A stretch of DNA of 64,000 bases from assembly GCA_023475025.1 (NCBI GenBank), contig JAMCWB010000030.1:65853-129852 (forward strand), written 5' to 3'. The notes under the pieces were generated by a model that did no database searches, was not told the origin of the DNA, and worked only from the letters and a program-made list of their open reading frames with translations. Position numbers and translations under genes: made by a program. Below are positions 33,520 to 38,913 of this stretch, in pieces (within the stretch, counting starts at the first letter, position 1; each line of letters starts with the position of its first letter). The stretch is from Gammaproteobacteria bacterium. GTDB taxonomy: Bacteria; Pseudomonadota; Gammaproteobacteria; Pseudomonadales; Pseudomonadaceae.

Positions 33520-34740
33520 ATGCAAATAGCCCACGAGACGTCCGAAGATCTCCAACCCACTCCCGTAACGGCAGTACGCAAGCTGTTGCCACTAATCGAA
33601 AGGCATGCCGCGCAATGTGAGCAGGAAGGCCGTGTCCTGGATGAGGTAATTGAGGCACTGGAGCAGGCCGGGCTGTTCCAGATGATGTTTCCCAAACGGG
33701 CTGGAGGCTCGGGGCACAAGATCATCACTCACATCGAAACTGTGGCCGAAATAGCAAAGGCTTGCCCTGGCACCGCCTGGGCCTTCAGCCTGCTTTCCGG
33801 AGTAACCGCGTCAGTCGCATCCATGCCCCCGGCAATTTCAGAGTTGGTCTTCAAGACAGGGGCAGAGCGAGTTTGCAGCGTCGCGGCGCAAACCGGCACT
33901 GCGCAGGCAACAGAAGATGGGTATGCCATCAGTGGCCGATGGGGATACGCATCGGGCTGTCTGCACGCCGACTGGGCACTCAACGGGGTAAAAATCATCG
34001 ACGAGCAGGGCCAGGTAATTGATGCCGGGTTCGCCCTCATGCCACTGCAGCATCCACAGGTGCGAATCGAGAACACATGGCATGTAGCCGGAGTTTGTGG
34101 CTCCGGCAGCAACACCGTCGTTGCGGAAAATATCGTAGTCGCCCCCATTCAGATATTGCGCTATTCCGAACTGCGACGCAGCAACGCGGCTGATCCCAAG
34201 GTACTGGCTGCCATGGAGCCCAGAGATCGCTGGCCAGTCGAACCTCTTTTTCCCCTAGGCGTCCTCGCTCCTATGCTGGGCGCCGCCAGCGCCATGCTGG
34301 AAAAGGTTCGGAAAAGCTTGCCCGAACGCCAGATCATTGGCTGGCGCTACGACAGCCAGAGCGAGTCGCAGGTGTTCGTCCAGCAACTGGGTGAGGCTGC
34401 AATGGAAATCGACTCCGCTTGGCTGCATATCCGCCGTGCTGCGGAGCAAATTGACAATACTGCACAGATAGCCCCATTGAACGGCTTTGAAAAAGCCTGT
34501 ATTCAGGCGGACTGCGGCTATGCCATGGGTCTCCTGCGCAAAGCAGGCGAGCGCCTGATGGACATCGCCGGCCCCGCCGCGTTTGCTCAGAACAACTCCC
34601 TGCAACGCCTGTGGCGAGATCTGAATGTGGGCAGTCGTCATACCGCACTGAACACAAGACTTTCACTCGAACTCTATGGACGCGCTCTGACCGAACAGGA
34701 ATCGAATCTTCTACTTTTACCCGAAATAAAGAGACAATAA
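33520..34740 (+). CDS. Flavin-dependent monooxygenase, HsaA/acyl-CoA dehydrogenase fold
   Basis: 406 residues with the acyl-CoA dehydrogenase fold, but of the two-component hydroxylase branch (HsaA, HpaB-like group D). Middle strand GRWGYASGCLHADWALNG and GVCGSGSNTVVAENIVV are typical; C-terminal SRHTALNTRLSLELYGR closes the helical domain. It would hydroxylate a phenolic or cyclic substrate with reduced flavin from a separate reductase, for which the fused reductase at 37183 is the obvious candidate. Followed after 51 bp by a TetR gene. Confidence 0.87.
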   Translation: MQIAHETSEDLQPTPVTAVRKLLPLIERHAAQCEQEGRVLDEVIEALEQAGLFQMMFPKRAGGSGHKIITHIETVAEIAKACPGTAWAFSLLSGVTASVASMPPAISELVFKTGAERVCSVAAQTGTAQATEDGYAISGRWGYASGCLHADWALNGVKIIDEQGQVIDAGFALMPLQHPQVRIENTWHVAGVCGSGSNTVVAENIVVAPIQILRYSELRRSNAADPKVLAAMEPRDRWPVEPLFPLGVLAPMLGAASAMLEKVRKSLPERQIIGWRYDSQSESQVFVQQLGEAAMEIDSAWLHIRRAAEQIDNTAQIAPLNGFEKACIQADCGYAMGLLRKAGERLMDIAGPAAFAQNNSLQRLWRDLNVGSRHTALNTRLSLELYGRALTEQESNLLLLPEIKRQ

Positions 34741-34791: not shown

Positions 34792-35493
34792 ATGAACAAC
34801 GAAACTGCACGCCCGACCAAGATGGACGAAGAGCTCGATTTTCGGGTGAGAGTCGCTCGCGAGAAGCGTGAACGCATGCGACAGCGCCTGCTCTTCGCCG
34901 CACTGGATGTATTTCTGGTGAGCGAACGCACTAAACCGCCAGTTATTGATGATGTCATTCTCAAGGCCGGGGTTTCTAGAGGAACCTTCTACAAATACTT
35001 CGACTCTCTGGATGAGGTGCTGGCGGAGCTCGGCCAACAAATGGCAGATGAGATGATTGAAACCTATGAGCGGATTTTTGCGCAGCTTTCCGACCCTGCC
35101 GCCAAGGTAGTTGCCGGACCGCTTCTGTCGCTTACCCATGCCGGCATGCAACCACAGAAGGTGGCATTCACCTCGAAGGTCGATTTTGTCGGCTACCTGT
35201 CTCTCAGCAAGCGCCTCGGCAGCATTGTCACAGCCTGCCTGAATGAAGCTAAACAGAGCGGTGCCGTACACTTCGCGTCACTTGATGTCGCTACCGATTA
35301 CATCATCGGGGCTACGGTCGAAGGCTCACGAAGAATGATGCATAACCAACTGTTCGATAAGGAATACCTGCATGAATTGGTATTGCTTATCATGCGTGGA
35401 TTTGGCATGAGCAACGAACAGGCCAGGCAGGCAATCAATATCGCATGGGAACAACTCAGCAGCCATTCTGACAACTTGCCCTGGTGGCGCTGA
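34792..35493 (+). CDS. TetR-family transcriptional regulator
   Basis: 233 residues. The basic leader (RVAREKRERMRQR) precedes a helix-turn-helix with GVSRGTFYKYFDSLDEVL at about residues 60-80, and the C-terminal part is a ligand domain. It sits in the same direction right after the flavin monooxygenase gene, so it probably represses its own operon through the palindrome at 33480. After it comes a 246-bp gap (35494-35739) in which I find only a weak GGCAATG/CATTGCC dyad (35574-35611). Confidence 0.85.
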   Translation: MNNETARPTKMDEELDFRVRVAREKRERMRQRLLFAALDVFLVSERTKPPVIDDVILKAGVSRGTFYKYFDSLDEVLAELGQQMADEMIETYERIFAQLSDPAAKVVAGPLLSLTHAGMQPQKVAFTSKVDFVGYLSLSKRLGSIVTACLNEAKQSGAVHFASLDVATDYIIGATVEGSRRMMHNQLFDKEYLHELVLLIMRGFGMSNEQARQAINIAWEQLSSHSDNLPWWR

Positions 35494-35739
35494 CAGGGCA
35501 GCCATTTCAAGCGGGAGGAAAGAAGGAGATGCCATTAAATAAAAACCTGAAGTTCTAAACACGCAAAATTACAGGCAATGGCTCGACTATAGCAGGAACT
35601 CTCTCATTGCCGGTAACAACCACCTCTCCGAACTCAAGACGTTCGCGACTGATGTCGTGATCTAGGAGTCGTGTTCACAAAATAAAAACAAGAAAGCCGA
35701 CCTCTCTTGCCTGCAAGACGGGTCAGCCAGGAGATGAAA

Positions 35740-37113
35740 ATGAAAGCCTTGTACTCTATTGCATGTGGAACCCTCCTTGGTCTCGCGGGCGTGGCTCAAG
35801 CTACCGTCGATGCCGATCAAATCCCAAACCATGACCGTGGGTTAACCCTCTTCGGCAGTGATCAGGCGGGCAATCACGACGGAACAATACCACCCTATAG
35901 TGGTGGCCTGATTCAGGCACCAGCCGACTTCAAACCCGATAGCGGATTCTGGACCAACCCATTCAAGAATGAAGAACCACTATTACGCATCGATGCGCAA
36001 AATGCTGATCAGTATGCAGACAGGTTGAGTGATGGCCAGCGTCATCTGCTGAAACAGTTCCCTACCTATCATCTCAACATCTACCCGACCCACCGGACCG
36101 CGGCCTACCCTACGCATGTACTTGAAGCCACCGCCCGCAACGCGGAGCAGTGCAATACCACCAAAGATAATCTGGCAGTCGAAACAGCATGCCGAGGCGG
36201 TCTGCCCTTTCCCGCGCCGGCCAACGGCAACGAGGTCATGTGGAACCAGTTGCTTGGCTATATAGGGGATACGGCGATCCAGGCCCAGCACAACCGTTCA
36301 TGGCGAATAGAGCGCAACGGCGCCAGAATCATGACGGCCGACCAGTCGACCTTCAGTGAGCGTCCTTACTACCAGACAGGACTGGGTGACCGCGATCCTC
36401 AGATGTTCTGGCGGACCTACTCGATTACCCAGAGCCCTGCCCGCAAGGCCGGGGAGATCACCGGTGTGTTCGACTACCTGGACACTGTCAGCAAACCGCG
36501 ACGGGCCTGGAGTTATACCACCGGCCAACGCAGGGTAAAGCTTGCCCCGGAATTTGCCTATGACACACCAGTGGCCAGCCTGGGTGGTGGACTCCTGTTC
36601 GATGAACTGTTTCTGTTCTCCGGCAAGATGGATCGCTTTGACTTCCAGTACAAGGGCGTCAAGGAAATGTATATCCCCTATAACAACTATGACCTGTATA
36701 CCCCCGTCGGCCAGTGCGACACCGAAGGGCAGTTCGTTGGTTCGCACATCAATCCCGCTTGTGAGCGCTTCGAACTGCATCGTGTCAGAGTCGTAGAAGC
36801 CACCCTCAAGCCCGGCATGCGGCATGCTTATTCAAAGAGGACCTATTACCTCGACGAGGATCTCAGCGGAGCGGGCATGTTCGACGCTTTTGACCAGAAC
36901 GGCGACCTGCACCGTGCCCTCTTCAATACCATGATCCAACTCTATGATCATAAAATTCCATGGGCAGCCCGTAGTCATACCTACGATTTCAATAGAGGCA
37001 TGCTTACCGTACTGGGTGATGCCTACACAGGCGGCTTCAAGGTCATGCCGGAACCACTCCCTGAGCGCCACCTGAACCCTGAGGCCATCACTGCACGGGA
37101 AACCGTGCGCTAA
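35740..37113 (+). CDS. DUF1329 periplasmic/outer-membrane protein (copy 2)
   Basis: 457 residues with a signal peptide (cut after AQA, about residue 22). DUF1329 blocks RRAWSYTTGQRR, LAPEFAYDTP, CERFELHRV and YSKRTYYLDED are kept. It is the most divergent in tone of the first four copies: GDTAIQAQHNRSW replaces the usual Ser/Thr-rich loop. ATG 35740 follows CAGGAG by 6 bp; in-frame codons upstream are less likely. It precedes the hydrolase/flavin reductase fusion by 69 bp. Confidence 0.88.
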   Translation: MKALYSIACGTLLGLAGVAQATVDADQIPNHDRGLTLFGSDQAGNHDGTIPPYSGGLIQAPADFKPDSGFWTNPFKNEEPLLRIDAQNADQYADRLSDGQRHLLKQFPTYHLNIYPTHRTAAYPTHVLEATARNAEQCNTTKDNLAVETACRGGLPFPAPANGNEVMWNQLLGYIGDTAIQAQHNRSWRIERNGARIMTADQSTFSERPYYQTGLGDRDPQMFWRTYSITQSPARKAGEITGVFDYLDTVSKPRRAWSYTTGQRRVKLAPEFAYDTPVASLGGGLLFDELFLFSGKMDRFDFQYKGVKEMYIPYNNYDLYTPVGQCDTEGQFVGSHINPACERFELHRVRVVEATLKPGMRHAYSKRTYYLDEDLSGAGMFDAFDQNGDLHRALFNTMIQLYDHKIPWAARSHTYDFNRGMLTVLGDAYTGGFKVMPEPLPERHLNPEAITARETVR

Positions 37114-37182: not shown

Positions 37183-38481
37183 ATGGAGCTGATAAAGATC
37201 ATCGGCCATGCAGGGATTTCCCTGGTAGCGGAAGCCGGCGGCAATTCCGACAACCAAGCGATACTGTTGCTGCACAACCATCAGCAAACCCGCCATGAGT
37301 GGGCACCGTTGGCCCGCCGTCTGATGCATACCGGATTCTACGTTGTATCACTCGACCTGCGCGGTCATGGCGATAGTGGCTGGAGTGAAGACTACTCTTT
37401 GTCCGCCCTGGCGGATGACGTTCATGCCGTATTGCAGACGTTGCCAGGCAAGCCAGTCGTTATAGGCTCTGGACTGGGTGGCAAGGCTGCCTTGCTGGCC
37501 GCCAGCAGAGAAAGTCAGCGATCTGGCATGGATATCATCAGCGCCATGATCATGATCGATGTTCACAGCCGAAGTGACATGCGCCTCGACAAGCAAACGC
37601 TCTATCGGGGAGGCCGTGATCTCAAAAACCTTATTGACGAGCTGAGCAGCCATATAGGCGGTGCCAGCAATACATCCATGCTGCATAAGTATCTGCGTTT
37701 ACGAACACCCGGTGTATGGCACTGGCACAGCGACCCTGGTATCGAGTCGACAGCAGCCATCAGTACCTGGCCAGATATCGAACTGGAGCAGGCCACGGCT
37801 ACCCTGGACATTCCAATGCTGCTGGTTCAAGGCGATGAAAGAAAATGCTGGCTTGAGCAACTAGCCAAGACCATACCCGGAGTAACACTGCTCACACAGC
37901 CTGGGGCAAGGCAATGGCTGAGCACTTCGGCGGAACTGGATGGGTTTGATCTCGTGACCCTGCGGTTTATTGAGAGTAGATGCGCTCCTATCCTGCCTGC
38001 CAGGGCTGATACCCGTCTATTGCGCCGCACACTTGGAGCGTTCGCCACCGGTGTCACTGTCATTACCACCACCGATGAGCATGGCAAGCCTGTCGGTCTT
38101 ACTGCCAACTCGTTCACCTCGGTCTCCCTGGACCCACCGCTGGTATTGTTCTGTCTTGACAAGCGTTCTGCCAGTCTAGAGATCTTCGAGAAGAGCCAAG
38201 CCTTCGGAATCAACGTACTGAATGCGGATCAGCAGGACATTTCACAGCGCTTTGCCAGCAGGAACGAAGACCGCTTCGCCGATACACCATGGGAAATGTG
38301 GGAGCTCAAAGTGCCCATTATCCAAAACACAGCGGCCAGTTTCGAGTGTGCAAAACACCACGTTGTCGATGCAGGTGATCACCTAATCTTCCTCGGTCGT
38401 GTCCATCATTCCTGGCTCGACTCCCAGCGTTCCCCGCTTCTGTACTTCCAGGGCAACTACCACCATGTGCAGCGCCATTGA
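37183..38481 (+). CDS. Fusion: degenerate alpha/beta hydrolase + flavin reductase
   Basis: 432 residues in two domains. Residues 1-265 show an alpha/beta hydrolase fold (LLLHNHQQT, LDLRGHGDSG), but the nucleophile elbow is GSGLGG with Gly97 where Ser is needed, and the late His position reads GARQWL. So this domain is probably not a hydrolase. Residues about 276-432 form an HsaB/HpaC-type flavin reductase (LGAFATGVTVITT, GLTANSFTSVSLDPPLV). The reductase should feed FMNH2 to the monooxygenase at 33520. I know of no described enzyme with this layout; the front domain may bind the substrate or dock the oxygenase. Confidence 0.85.
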   Translation: MELIKIIGHAGISLVAEAGGNSDNQAILLLHNHQQTRHEWAPLARRLMHTGFYVVSLDLRGHGDSGWSEDYSLSALADDVHAVLQTLPGKPVVIGSGLGGKAALLAASRESQRSGMDIISAMIMIDVHSRSDMRLDKQTLYRGGRDLKNLIDELSSHIGGASNTSMLHKYLRLRTPGVWHWHSDPGIESTAAISTWPDIELEQATATLDIPMLLVQGDERKCWLEQLAKTIPGVTLLTQPGARQWLSTSAELDGFDLVTLRFIESRCAPILPARADTRLLRRTLGAFATGVTVITTTDEHGKPVGLTANSFTSVSLDPPLVLFCLDKRSASLEIFEKSQAFGINVLNADQQDISQRFASRNEDRFADTPWEMWELKVPIIQNTAASFECAKHHVVDAGDHLIFLGRVHHSWLDSQRSPLLYFQGNYHHVQRH

Positions 38482-38565
38482 CATATACCGGTCAGGCAGG
38501 GGCCTTGTCGTGCCTGCCGCCCCCTCCGCGCAACCACACGAAAACCAGCAACAAAGGACATCATC

Positions 38566-38913
38566 ATGAACGACAGCAAAAAGCTTGAGCACTTTCTCCA
38601 CGCACAAGTGGAGCACTGGAACAACGGCGACAAGGAAGGCTTCCTCGGCTGTTACCGCGACATAGCTAAAAACGGGCTTGATATCGAATATGTGGGTTAC
38701 CCAAAGGCTGATCCATGGGTAACGCTGAATGCCATGTGGGATCAGGAACGTGAAAAAATTCGCATCGATATCCTGGCCGCCATTGTTTCAGGCAACGAAG
38801 CGGCCTGTCACCATCGGAATAATCGTACTACCGGGGAACCAGCCACTCATACCATAGAGCTATACAAGTTTGAGAATGGTCACCTGAGCGCCCGTTATTT
38901 TATTGGCCGATAG
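38566..38913 (+). CDS. SnoaL/NTF2-like protein (paralog A)
   Basis: Small single-domain protein of 115 residues with the NTF2 cone fold, no signal peptide. It is a clear paralog of the protein at 45742: both have NGLDIEY, GNEAACHHRN and TIELYKFE. Such proteins act as isomerases, cyclases or hydrolases, or as binding proteins for polycyclic substrates such as ketosteroids and polyketides. A conserved Asp/His set (AACHHRN) could be catalytic. It ends the operon that begins with DUF1329 copy 2. Confidence 0.8.
   Translation: MNDSKKLEHFLHAQVEHWNNGDKEGFLGCYRDIAKNGLDIEYVGYPKADPWVTLNAMWDQEREKIRIDILAAIVSGNEAACHHRNNRTTGEPATHTIELYKFENGHLSARYFIGR

Follow-up and report, generated by a model that had tools for sequence, protein, structure and literature searches.

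A degenerate alpha/beta-hydrolase domain fused to a flavin reductase in Halopseudomonas, and the family to which it belongs

A gene of Halopseudomonas, found in the 64,000-nt stretch of DNA that was analysed (the window), encodes a single protein in which an alpha/beta-hydrolase domain without the catalytic residues of its relatives precedes a complete flavin reductase domain. The gene belongs to one family that holds fusions with an intact catalytic triad, inactivated fusions under purifying selection, shortened fusions and members that consist of the reductase only. The main interest of the finding is this natural series, in which an enzyme domain decays in some members of a family and is retained in others. 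The family represents a natural case for asking why a dead enzyme domain is kept, and, whatever the role of the hydrolase half turns out to be, the fate of a fused enzyme domain after the loss of its active site can be studied in one gene. For the hydrolase half in the window we favour, with a probability of about 45%, a role as a non-catalytic module on the reductase that would either sense a ligand or serve the structure of the protein.

The fused gene, its two domains and its neighbours

The following features were assigned to the gene; all positions are those of the window.

37183..38481, + strand: fused pseudo-hydrolase/flavin reductase gene, 432 aa
37183..37980, + strand: N-terminal alpha/beta-hydrolase domain, approximately aa 1-266 (Pfam Abhydrolase_1/6, alignment with standalone relatives, profile match)
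37471..37473, + strand: codon gga for Gly97 in the nucleophile column, where intact relatives have Ser (alignment)
37843..37845, + strand: codon for Lys221 in the column of the acid, Asp in intact relatives (alignment)
37882..37950, + strand: segment aa 234-256 without a His, VTLLTQPGARQWLSTSAELDGFD, where intact relatives carry the catalytic His
38008..38478, + strand: complete flavin reductase domain, aa 276-432 (PF01613, PDB matches, family alignment, Foldseek on a partial model)

The gene is one open frame that runs uninterrupted from its ATG to the stop codon, and a good ribosome-binding site, ggagga, is located 8-13 nt 5' of the ATG. The Pfam domains Abhydrolase_1 (aa 26-127, E 8e-12) and Flavin_Reduct (PF01613) were found in the same frame, with the alpha/beta-hydrolase matches (Abhydrolase_1/6) falling within about aa 24-242, and a profile of the standalone relatives aligned with this domain matched 3p2m best among solved hydrolases (E 3e-29). 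An earlier sequence-only reading had described a hydrolase domain joined to a complete flavin reductase, and it had named a sequencing error as a possible objection. The description holds, and the objection can be set aside: an error of sequencing or assembly that fused two genes is excluded, because the same full-length frame is present in assemblies of H. bauzanensis and H. xiamenensis with 96% and 95% identity. The genomes with these two copies share a genus code with the window, which places the window in Halopseudomonas. The frame also occurs on plasmids of Cupriavidus and Agrobacterium vitis and in many further genomes, and nothing turned up in favour of an error. The fusion is thus not unique to Halopseudomonas, and it is not the new arrangement that it had been thought to be, as the same joined protein exists in other genera, including Cupriavidus and A. 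vitis, and in many genomes of Pseudomonadota.

The alignment placed Gly97 in the nucleophile column, and the triad columns read G/K/Q in the fused protein versus S/D/H in 8 of 11 standalone relatives. The nucleophile elbow is IGSGLGG here versus VGASMGG in one intact relative, and HNHQQ stands where the relatives lead one to expect HGGGQ as the oxyanion motif. The earlier statements that Gly occupies the nucleophile site, that the catalytic His is missing and that the hydrolase is dead were therefore confirmed at the level of sequence, and the acid was found to be gone as well. Since nucleophile, acid and His have all disappeared, the hydrolase half should no longer hydrolyse anything. It is very improbable that this half is still an enzyme that works by another mechanism or with residues at shifted positions, such as Ser96 next to Gly97. 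Ser96 and several His are present in the hydrolase domain, and 7 of the 51 fused family members that were tabulated keep Ser-Asp-His; however, Ser96 is replaced by Ala in Cupriavidus and by Thr in A. vitis and is thus not a conserved residue, the segment that bears the His in relatives contains none, and the oxyanion motif and the acid column have changed too.

The alpha/beta-hydrolase fold was recognized by the Pfam and profile matches, whereas the AlphaFold models were poor: two models built from alignments of 3 and 6 rows had mean pLDDT values of 33 and 50. For the second model, blocks of 10 residues reached 42-84 at aa 1-120, 54-77 at aa 291-350 and 64-68 at aa 381-410, with mostly lower values outside these regions; the pocket proposed below does not draw on this model. 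When the partial model was submitted to Foldseek, which gave 1478 matches, the best 50 consisted entirely of flavin reductases or oxidoreductases and included no hydrolase. Viral contigs, searched for a deeper alignment, yielded two relatives of the reductase, and a search of these contigs with the hydrolase profile yielded none.

The reductase half matched PF01613 from aa 285 to 429, covering profile positions 2-152 of 153 (E 6e-46, 156.8 bits versus a cut-off of 27). Its TANSFTSVSL and GDH segments are kept in a family alignment of nine rows; the TANSF and GDH segments have roles in flavin reductases. The best matches in the PDB by sequence were 5zc2, 3rh7 and 3nfw. Among the NCBIfam models, HPAH reductase C1 (NF045919) scored highest, with 192.1 bits versus a cut-off of 340, and the match covered model positions 5-161 of 309, so that a C-terminal domain of the C1 type is absent. 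The HsaB model (NF045630) reached 157.1 bits versus a cut-off of 230, and membership in HsaB was rejected on this score. Of the previous assignment as a complete reductase of the HsaB type, completeness stands, but the type was too specific, as the HPAH model scores higher and both remain below their cut-offs. By curated score, the reductase half is classified as HPAH/HsaB-like and as neither HsaB nor C1, and we infer that the protein has flavin reductase activity.

Four neighbouring genes are relevant for the function of the fused protein.

33520..34740, + strand: group D flavin monooxygenase (acyl-CoA dehydrogenase fold), probable partner (HsaA model, XiaF match, PF08028)
34792..35493, + strand: TetR-like regulator between the monooxygenase and the fused gene (23.8 bits with Pfam TetR_N, marginally below the cut-off of 24)
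35707..37113, + strand: DUF1329 protein, directly 5' of the fused gene (Pfam)
38566..38913, + strand: SnoaL-like protein, directly 3' of the fused gene (SnoaL_2, 21.6 bits, under the cut-off of 27)

The monooxygenase gene is located 2.4 kb upstream of the fused gene. Its product scored 209.5 bits with the HsaA model (cut-off 450) and 80.8 bits with PF08028 (cut-off 22.7), its nearest solved relatives are XiaF (5lvu, E 6e-55) and then the 3-HSA hydroxylase (2rfq, E 1e-39), and by its sequence it belongs to the group D monooxygenases. The enzyme is 99% identical in the two other Halopseudomonas, in both of which the order and spacing of the oxygenase, TetR, DUF1329, fused and SnoaL genes are identical as well. 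The window's own genome contains two oxygenase and two reductase matches (E <= 0.001), which are paired at two loci with distances of 2.4 and 3.6 kb, the second pair consisting of a reductase match at C49 154440-154892 and an oxygenase match at C49 158537-159646; thus, each reductase has its own nearby oxygenase. The monooxygenase had previously been named as the partner of the fused reductase, and we infer that this is very probably its role in this cluster.

The surroundings of other family members were also analysed. In A. vitis, genes for an amidohydrolase, two VOC proteins, an acyl-CoA-dehydrogenase-family protein, an aldo/keto reductase and FAH precede the fused gene on the same strand, and the acyl-CoA-dehydrogenase-family protein matches the window's oxygenase with 26% identity (E 2e-32). 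By contrast, blastp (E <= 1e-5) detected no group D monooxygenase near any of the 22 fused loci inspected in the families f76, f64 and f67. The flanks covered about 3-10 kb per side (one contig was just 3.5 kb long), and a match was counted if it was to the oxygenase of the window or of A. vitis. Matches to the ORFs that flank the oxygenase (L006/L137, L007 at 11740, L079 at 315, L080 at 444) were discounted. Likewise, the 50 kb around the fused copy of Cupriavidus held no match to such an oxygenase, and a monooxygenase partner at every fused locus was therefore rejected. As judged by eye, three fused genes of f64 (L145, L146 and L147) adjoin thiolase/OB-fold, enoyl-CoA hydratase or VOC-like genes, an arrangement that might point to a role in catabolism linked to CoA. 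The window as a whole (1-64000) resembles one large catabolic island, with two P450s, a Rieske oxygenase, a BphC-like extradiol dioxygenase, and FAH and amidohydrolase genes; two DUF1329 genes were identified by Pfam, and three more as well as many SDR- and MFS-like genes were recognized by eye.

Decay and retention of the hydrolase half in the family

Full-length relatives that cover at least 80% of the query were found in 2 of 72,556 plasmid records, namely on plasmids of Cupriavidus necator and A. vitis. At E <= 1e-75, family matches occurred in 43 of 105 genomes of f76, in 23 of 249 genomes of f64 (8 of these with the reductase only) and in 1 of 295 genomes of f67. These three families belong to the window's phylum and to a different class, and we take f76 and f64 to be Alphaproteobacteria. 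Among 369 genomes sampled from the window's class, the only one with a match was the window's own, and 3 of 37 genomes of the genus Halopseudomonas contain the fused gene at the same threshold. On a tree of the reductase, the Halopseudomonas branch joins the plasmid copy of Cupriavidus (96/75), although both branches are long and the join may be false, and L042, a long-branch row without the hydrolase half, falls beside them (70/39). One row, L121, was taken for the trees from the start of its open frame, with no start codon used. Treating the 58 other family rows as one group was not rejected (AU p 0.46). Both the patchy distribution and the place next to the plasmid copy of Cupriavidus on the tree fit horizontal transfer, and the cluster was probably acquired in this way.

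Close relatives of the reductase that lack the hydrolase half (L127-L134) are interspersed with the fused rows on the tree, and a six-frame profile search of their 3.5-kb loci revealed no trace of a hydrolase-half remnant. The fusion of hydrolase and reductase probably arose once, in an ancestor of the family. A search of the literature, with most subscription journals outside its coverage, found no title or abstract opening on an alpha/beta-hydrolase/flavin-reductase fusion, and the literature on pseudoenzyme hydrolases likewise gave none.

The triad residues were tabulated for 59 rows (64 loci minus 5 duplicates, with several near-identical rows), of which 51 have the hydrolase half and 8 do not. 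The f76 rows are the best 30 of 44 listed matches, and 6 of the other 14 match only from profile position 163-177 on. Ser-Asp-His is kept in 7 of the 51 fused rows, all from one clade, and 38 are without Ser or His. The remaining six have kept Ser and His with an unclear acid (four S/R/H, two S/E/H) and may be active. The nucleophile column contains Ser, Gly, Thr, Arg, Asn or Ala, the His was kept or lost separately, and nucleophile, acid and His are missing in many different combinations. The three standalone relatives without S/D/H are L011, for which the alignment breaks off, L012 (G/E/H) and the remote L005. L012 (4848-5861), from a plasmid of Burkholderia arboris, has Gly at the nucleophile position (GAGLGG) with the His present, so inactivation is not limited to fused copies. 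The Cupriavidus plasmid encodes a further standalone relative, intact by eye, at a distance of about 11 kb from its fused gene.

With the fewest changes on the reductase tree, 7 changes of the nucleophile state, 8 of the His state (an absent half counting as a state) and 3 of the presence of the half were required, counts that carry no direction. Most simply, the ancestral fusion would have been active, with repeated loss of activity afterwards and loss of the half in some lines; three independent gains of the half are the alternative to losses. The family varies also in the length of the half: the part before the reductase domain measures 275 residues in the window, 240-251 residues in 22 and 179-225 residues in 7 of the 51 fused rows, and in the remaining fused rows its length varies with the choice of start codon. 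The lid region is shortened in most other fused rows that were aligned, whereas the window and Cupriavidus copies keep a longer lid.

Selection was quantified separately for the two halves, with synonymous sites saturated in several pairs. For inactivated pairs of f76, the dN/dS values of the hydrolase and reductase halves were 0.031 and 0.033 (L039/L040), 0.044 and 0.042 (L089/L090), 0.037 and 0.023 (L094/L095), and 0.019 and 0.017 (L037/L038, with dS > 1). For intact pairs, the hydrolase half yielded 0.032 (L102/L110), 0.041 (L105/L108), 0.058 (L105/L109) and 0.100 (L106/L107), a range (0.03-0.10) that includes the first three inactivated pairs. The hydrolase half of some inactivated clades is thus under purifying selection near that of the reductase, with dN/dS values of about 0.02-0.06. 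The hydrolase half evolved faster, however, in the inactivated pairs L041/L124 (0.28 versus 0.055), L118/L119 (0.29 versus 0.15) and L111/L113 (0.21 versus 0.094). In the window's lineage, dN/dS was 0.46 for the hydrolase half (15 nonsynonymous and 10 synonymous changes) versus 0.057 for the reductase half (4 and 19; Fisher p 0.003), and the test of the hydrolase half for dN/dS < 1 was borderline (binomial p 0.049, with few changes). The same comparison gave 0.037 for the SnoaL gene and 0.07-0.27 for the three upstream genes. Selection on the hydrolase half thus seems relaxed in this lineage. Because several inactivated f76 pairs are about as constrained as the reductase and the window's half stands at 0.46, it is well supported that the half is kept for a function in some clades, and less certain in the lineage of the window.

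A separate observation concerns synonymous divergence between window 37183-38913 and L003 9001-10731, which steps from 0.04-0.05 for the monooxygenase, TetR and DUF1329 genes and the hydrolase half to 0.20-0.30 for the SnoaL gene and the reductase half, a pattern that a recombination breakpoint close to the domain junction would produce.

Possible roles of the hydrolase half

We propose that the catabolic cluster encodes a two-component monooxygenase system of group D, in which the protein would act as the NADH:flavin reductase. The ancestor of its N-terminal half would be a serine hydrolase, active at first, that became joined to the reductase; in the window's lineage, nucleophile, acid and His would have been lost and the fold kept as a non-catalytic module. 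Most likely, the pocket of this module would sense a compound of the pathway and gate the oxidation of NADH or the release of reduced flavin (alternatively, the module might stabilise the dimer). By analogy, its action would resemble that of the MarR-like domain in HPAH reductase C1, and a former substrate-binding hydrolase would be a plausible starting point for such a sensor. The appended MarR domain of C1 binds 4-HPA and relieves self-inhibition, increasing flavin reduction at least 30-fold (PMC10816480). Consistent with a non-catalytic module, 38 of the 51 fused rows are without Ser or His and still have the domain, and in several inactivated f76 pairs dN/dS of the hydrolase half is near that of the reductase half. 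The counter-evidence is the relaxed dN/dS of the hydrolase half in the window's lineage, its faster evolution in other inactivated pairs, and the eight members of the family that consist of the reductase alone, so that the hydrolase half is dispensable.

A close rival of this reading, for the window's copy, is that the half has lost its job and is eroding in several lineages including that of the window; it would persist only as a shield or solubiliser of the reductase or because it has not yet been deleted. This rival has a substantial chance of being correct. The relaxed dN/dS in the window's lineage speaks for it, as do the shrinkage elsewhere (fewer residues before the reductase domain and a shortened lid in the aligned rows), the eight rows without the half, for which three changes are needed on the tree, and the loss of nucleophile, acid and His in many combinations. 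The purifying selection close to that of the reductase in several inactivated f76 pairs speaks against it, as does the longer lid of the window and Cupriavidus copies. Of the 15 substitutions that separate the hydrolase halves of the window and H. bauzanensis, most look conservative by eye, which also argues against mere erosion, and we place the borderline test for dN/dS < 1 on the same side.

A more far-reaching form of the module proposal is that a serine hydrolase became, independently in several lineages, a ligand-sensing gate that switches on NADH oxidation and the release of reduced flavin only when a catabolic intermediate is present. This generalization is tentative and may well not apply. 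If it is true, the hydrolase-derived gate would solve, in a second and unrelated way, the problem for which C1 uses its MarR-like domain, and it would show how free flavin reductases could avoid the waste of NADH and the formation of peroxide without substrate.

The sequence-only reading had instead suggested that the dead hydrolase serves as a docking or substrate-binding module for the two-component oxygenase; in that case, it would bind the monooxygenase or its substrate and channel reduced flavin. A group D monooxygenase or a relative is indeed encoded near the fused gene in three Halopseudomonas genomes and in A. vitis. Yet no such oxygenase was found in the flanks (about 3-10 kb per side, one contig of 3.5 kb) of the 22 fused loci inspected in f76, f64 and f67 or in the 50 kb around the Cupriavidus copy, and the E. 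coli reductase Fre can serve XiaF as well (PMC5481743); dedicated docking is therefore less likely. Moreover, the kinetics of HPAH suggest that reduced flavin passes by diffusion, without protein-protein contact (PMC10816480), and the eight reductase-only members argue against the proposed task, too. We consider docking unlikely and retain the non-catalytic sensing or structural module as the preferred reading.

Comparison with known systems

HPAH reductase C1 of Acinetobacter baumannii (5zc2, 5zyr) has the same reductase domain as the fused protein, and 5zc2 was the best solved match (E 2e-43). Both proteins have a second, appended domain, and the oxygenase partner of C1 is related by sequence to the window's oxygenase (2jbr, E 1e-32). 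The two differ in the appended domain: in C1 it is C-terminal, of the MarR type, binds the substrate and relieves self-inhibition (PMC10816480), whereas in the fused protein it is N-terminal and a degenerate alpha/beta hydrolase. The HsaAB and XiaF/XiaP systems likewise have an oxygenase related by sequence to that of the window, together with a separate flavin reductase, and the window's pair scored below both the HsaA and the HsaB cut-offs. HsaB and XiaP are single-domain reductases.

An alpha/beta hydrolase is also fused ahead of a flavin reductase in LLM-monooxygenase operons, represented by L008 (Mesorhizobium ciceri pMESCI01), L044 and L046, while L047 and L048 have the hydrolase and the flavin reductase as separate neighbouring genes. 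An LLM-class enzyme is annotated beside L008 (8383-10182), and ORFs of similar appearance were noticed by eye beside L047 and L048. The reductases of the fusions in LLM operons form a clade separate from the window's family and are followed by a C-terminal extension. The hydrolases that were read (L008, L046, L047 and L048) keep GHSMGA and a His-bearing motif, in contrast to the window's half. We take the fusion in the LLM operons to be a second, independent one. Finally, the styrene monooxygenase StyA2B is another two-component system in which a flavin reductase is naturally fused to another domain; there, the fusion partner of the reductase is reportedly the monooxygenase itself.
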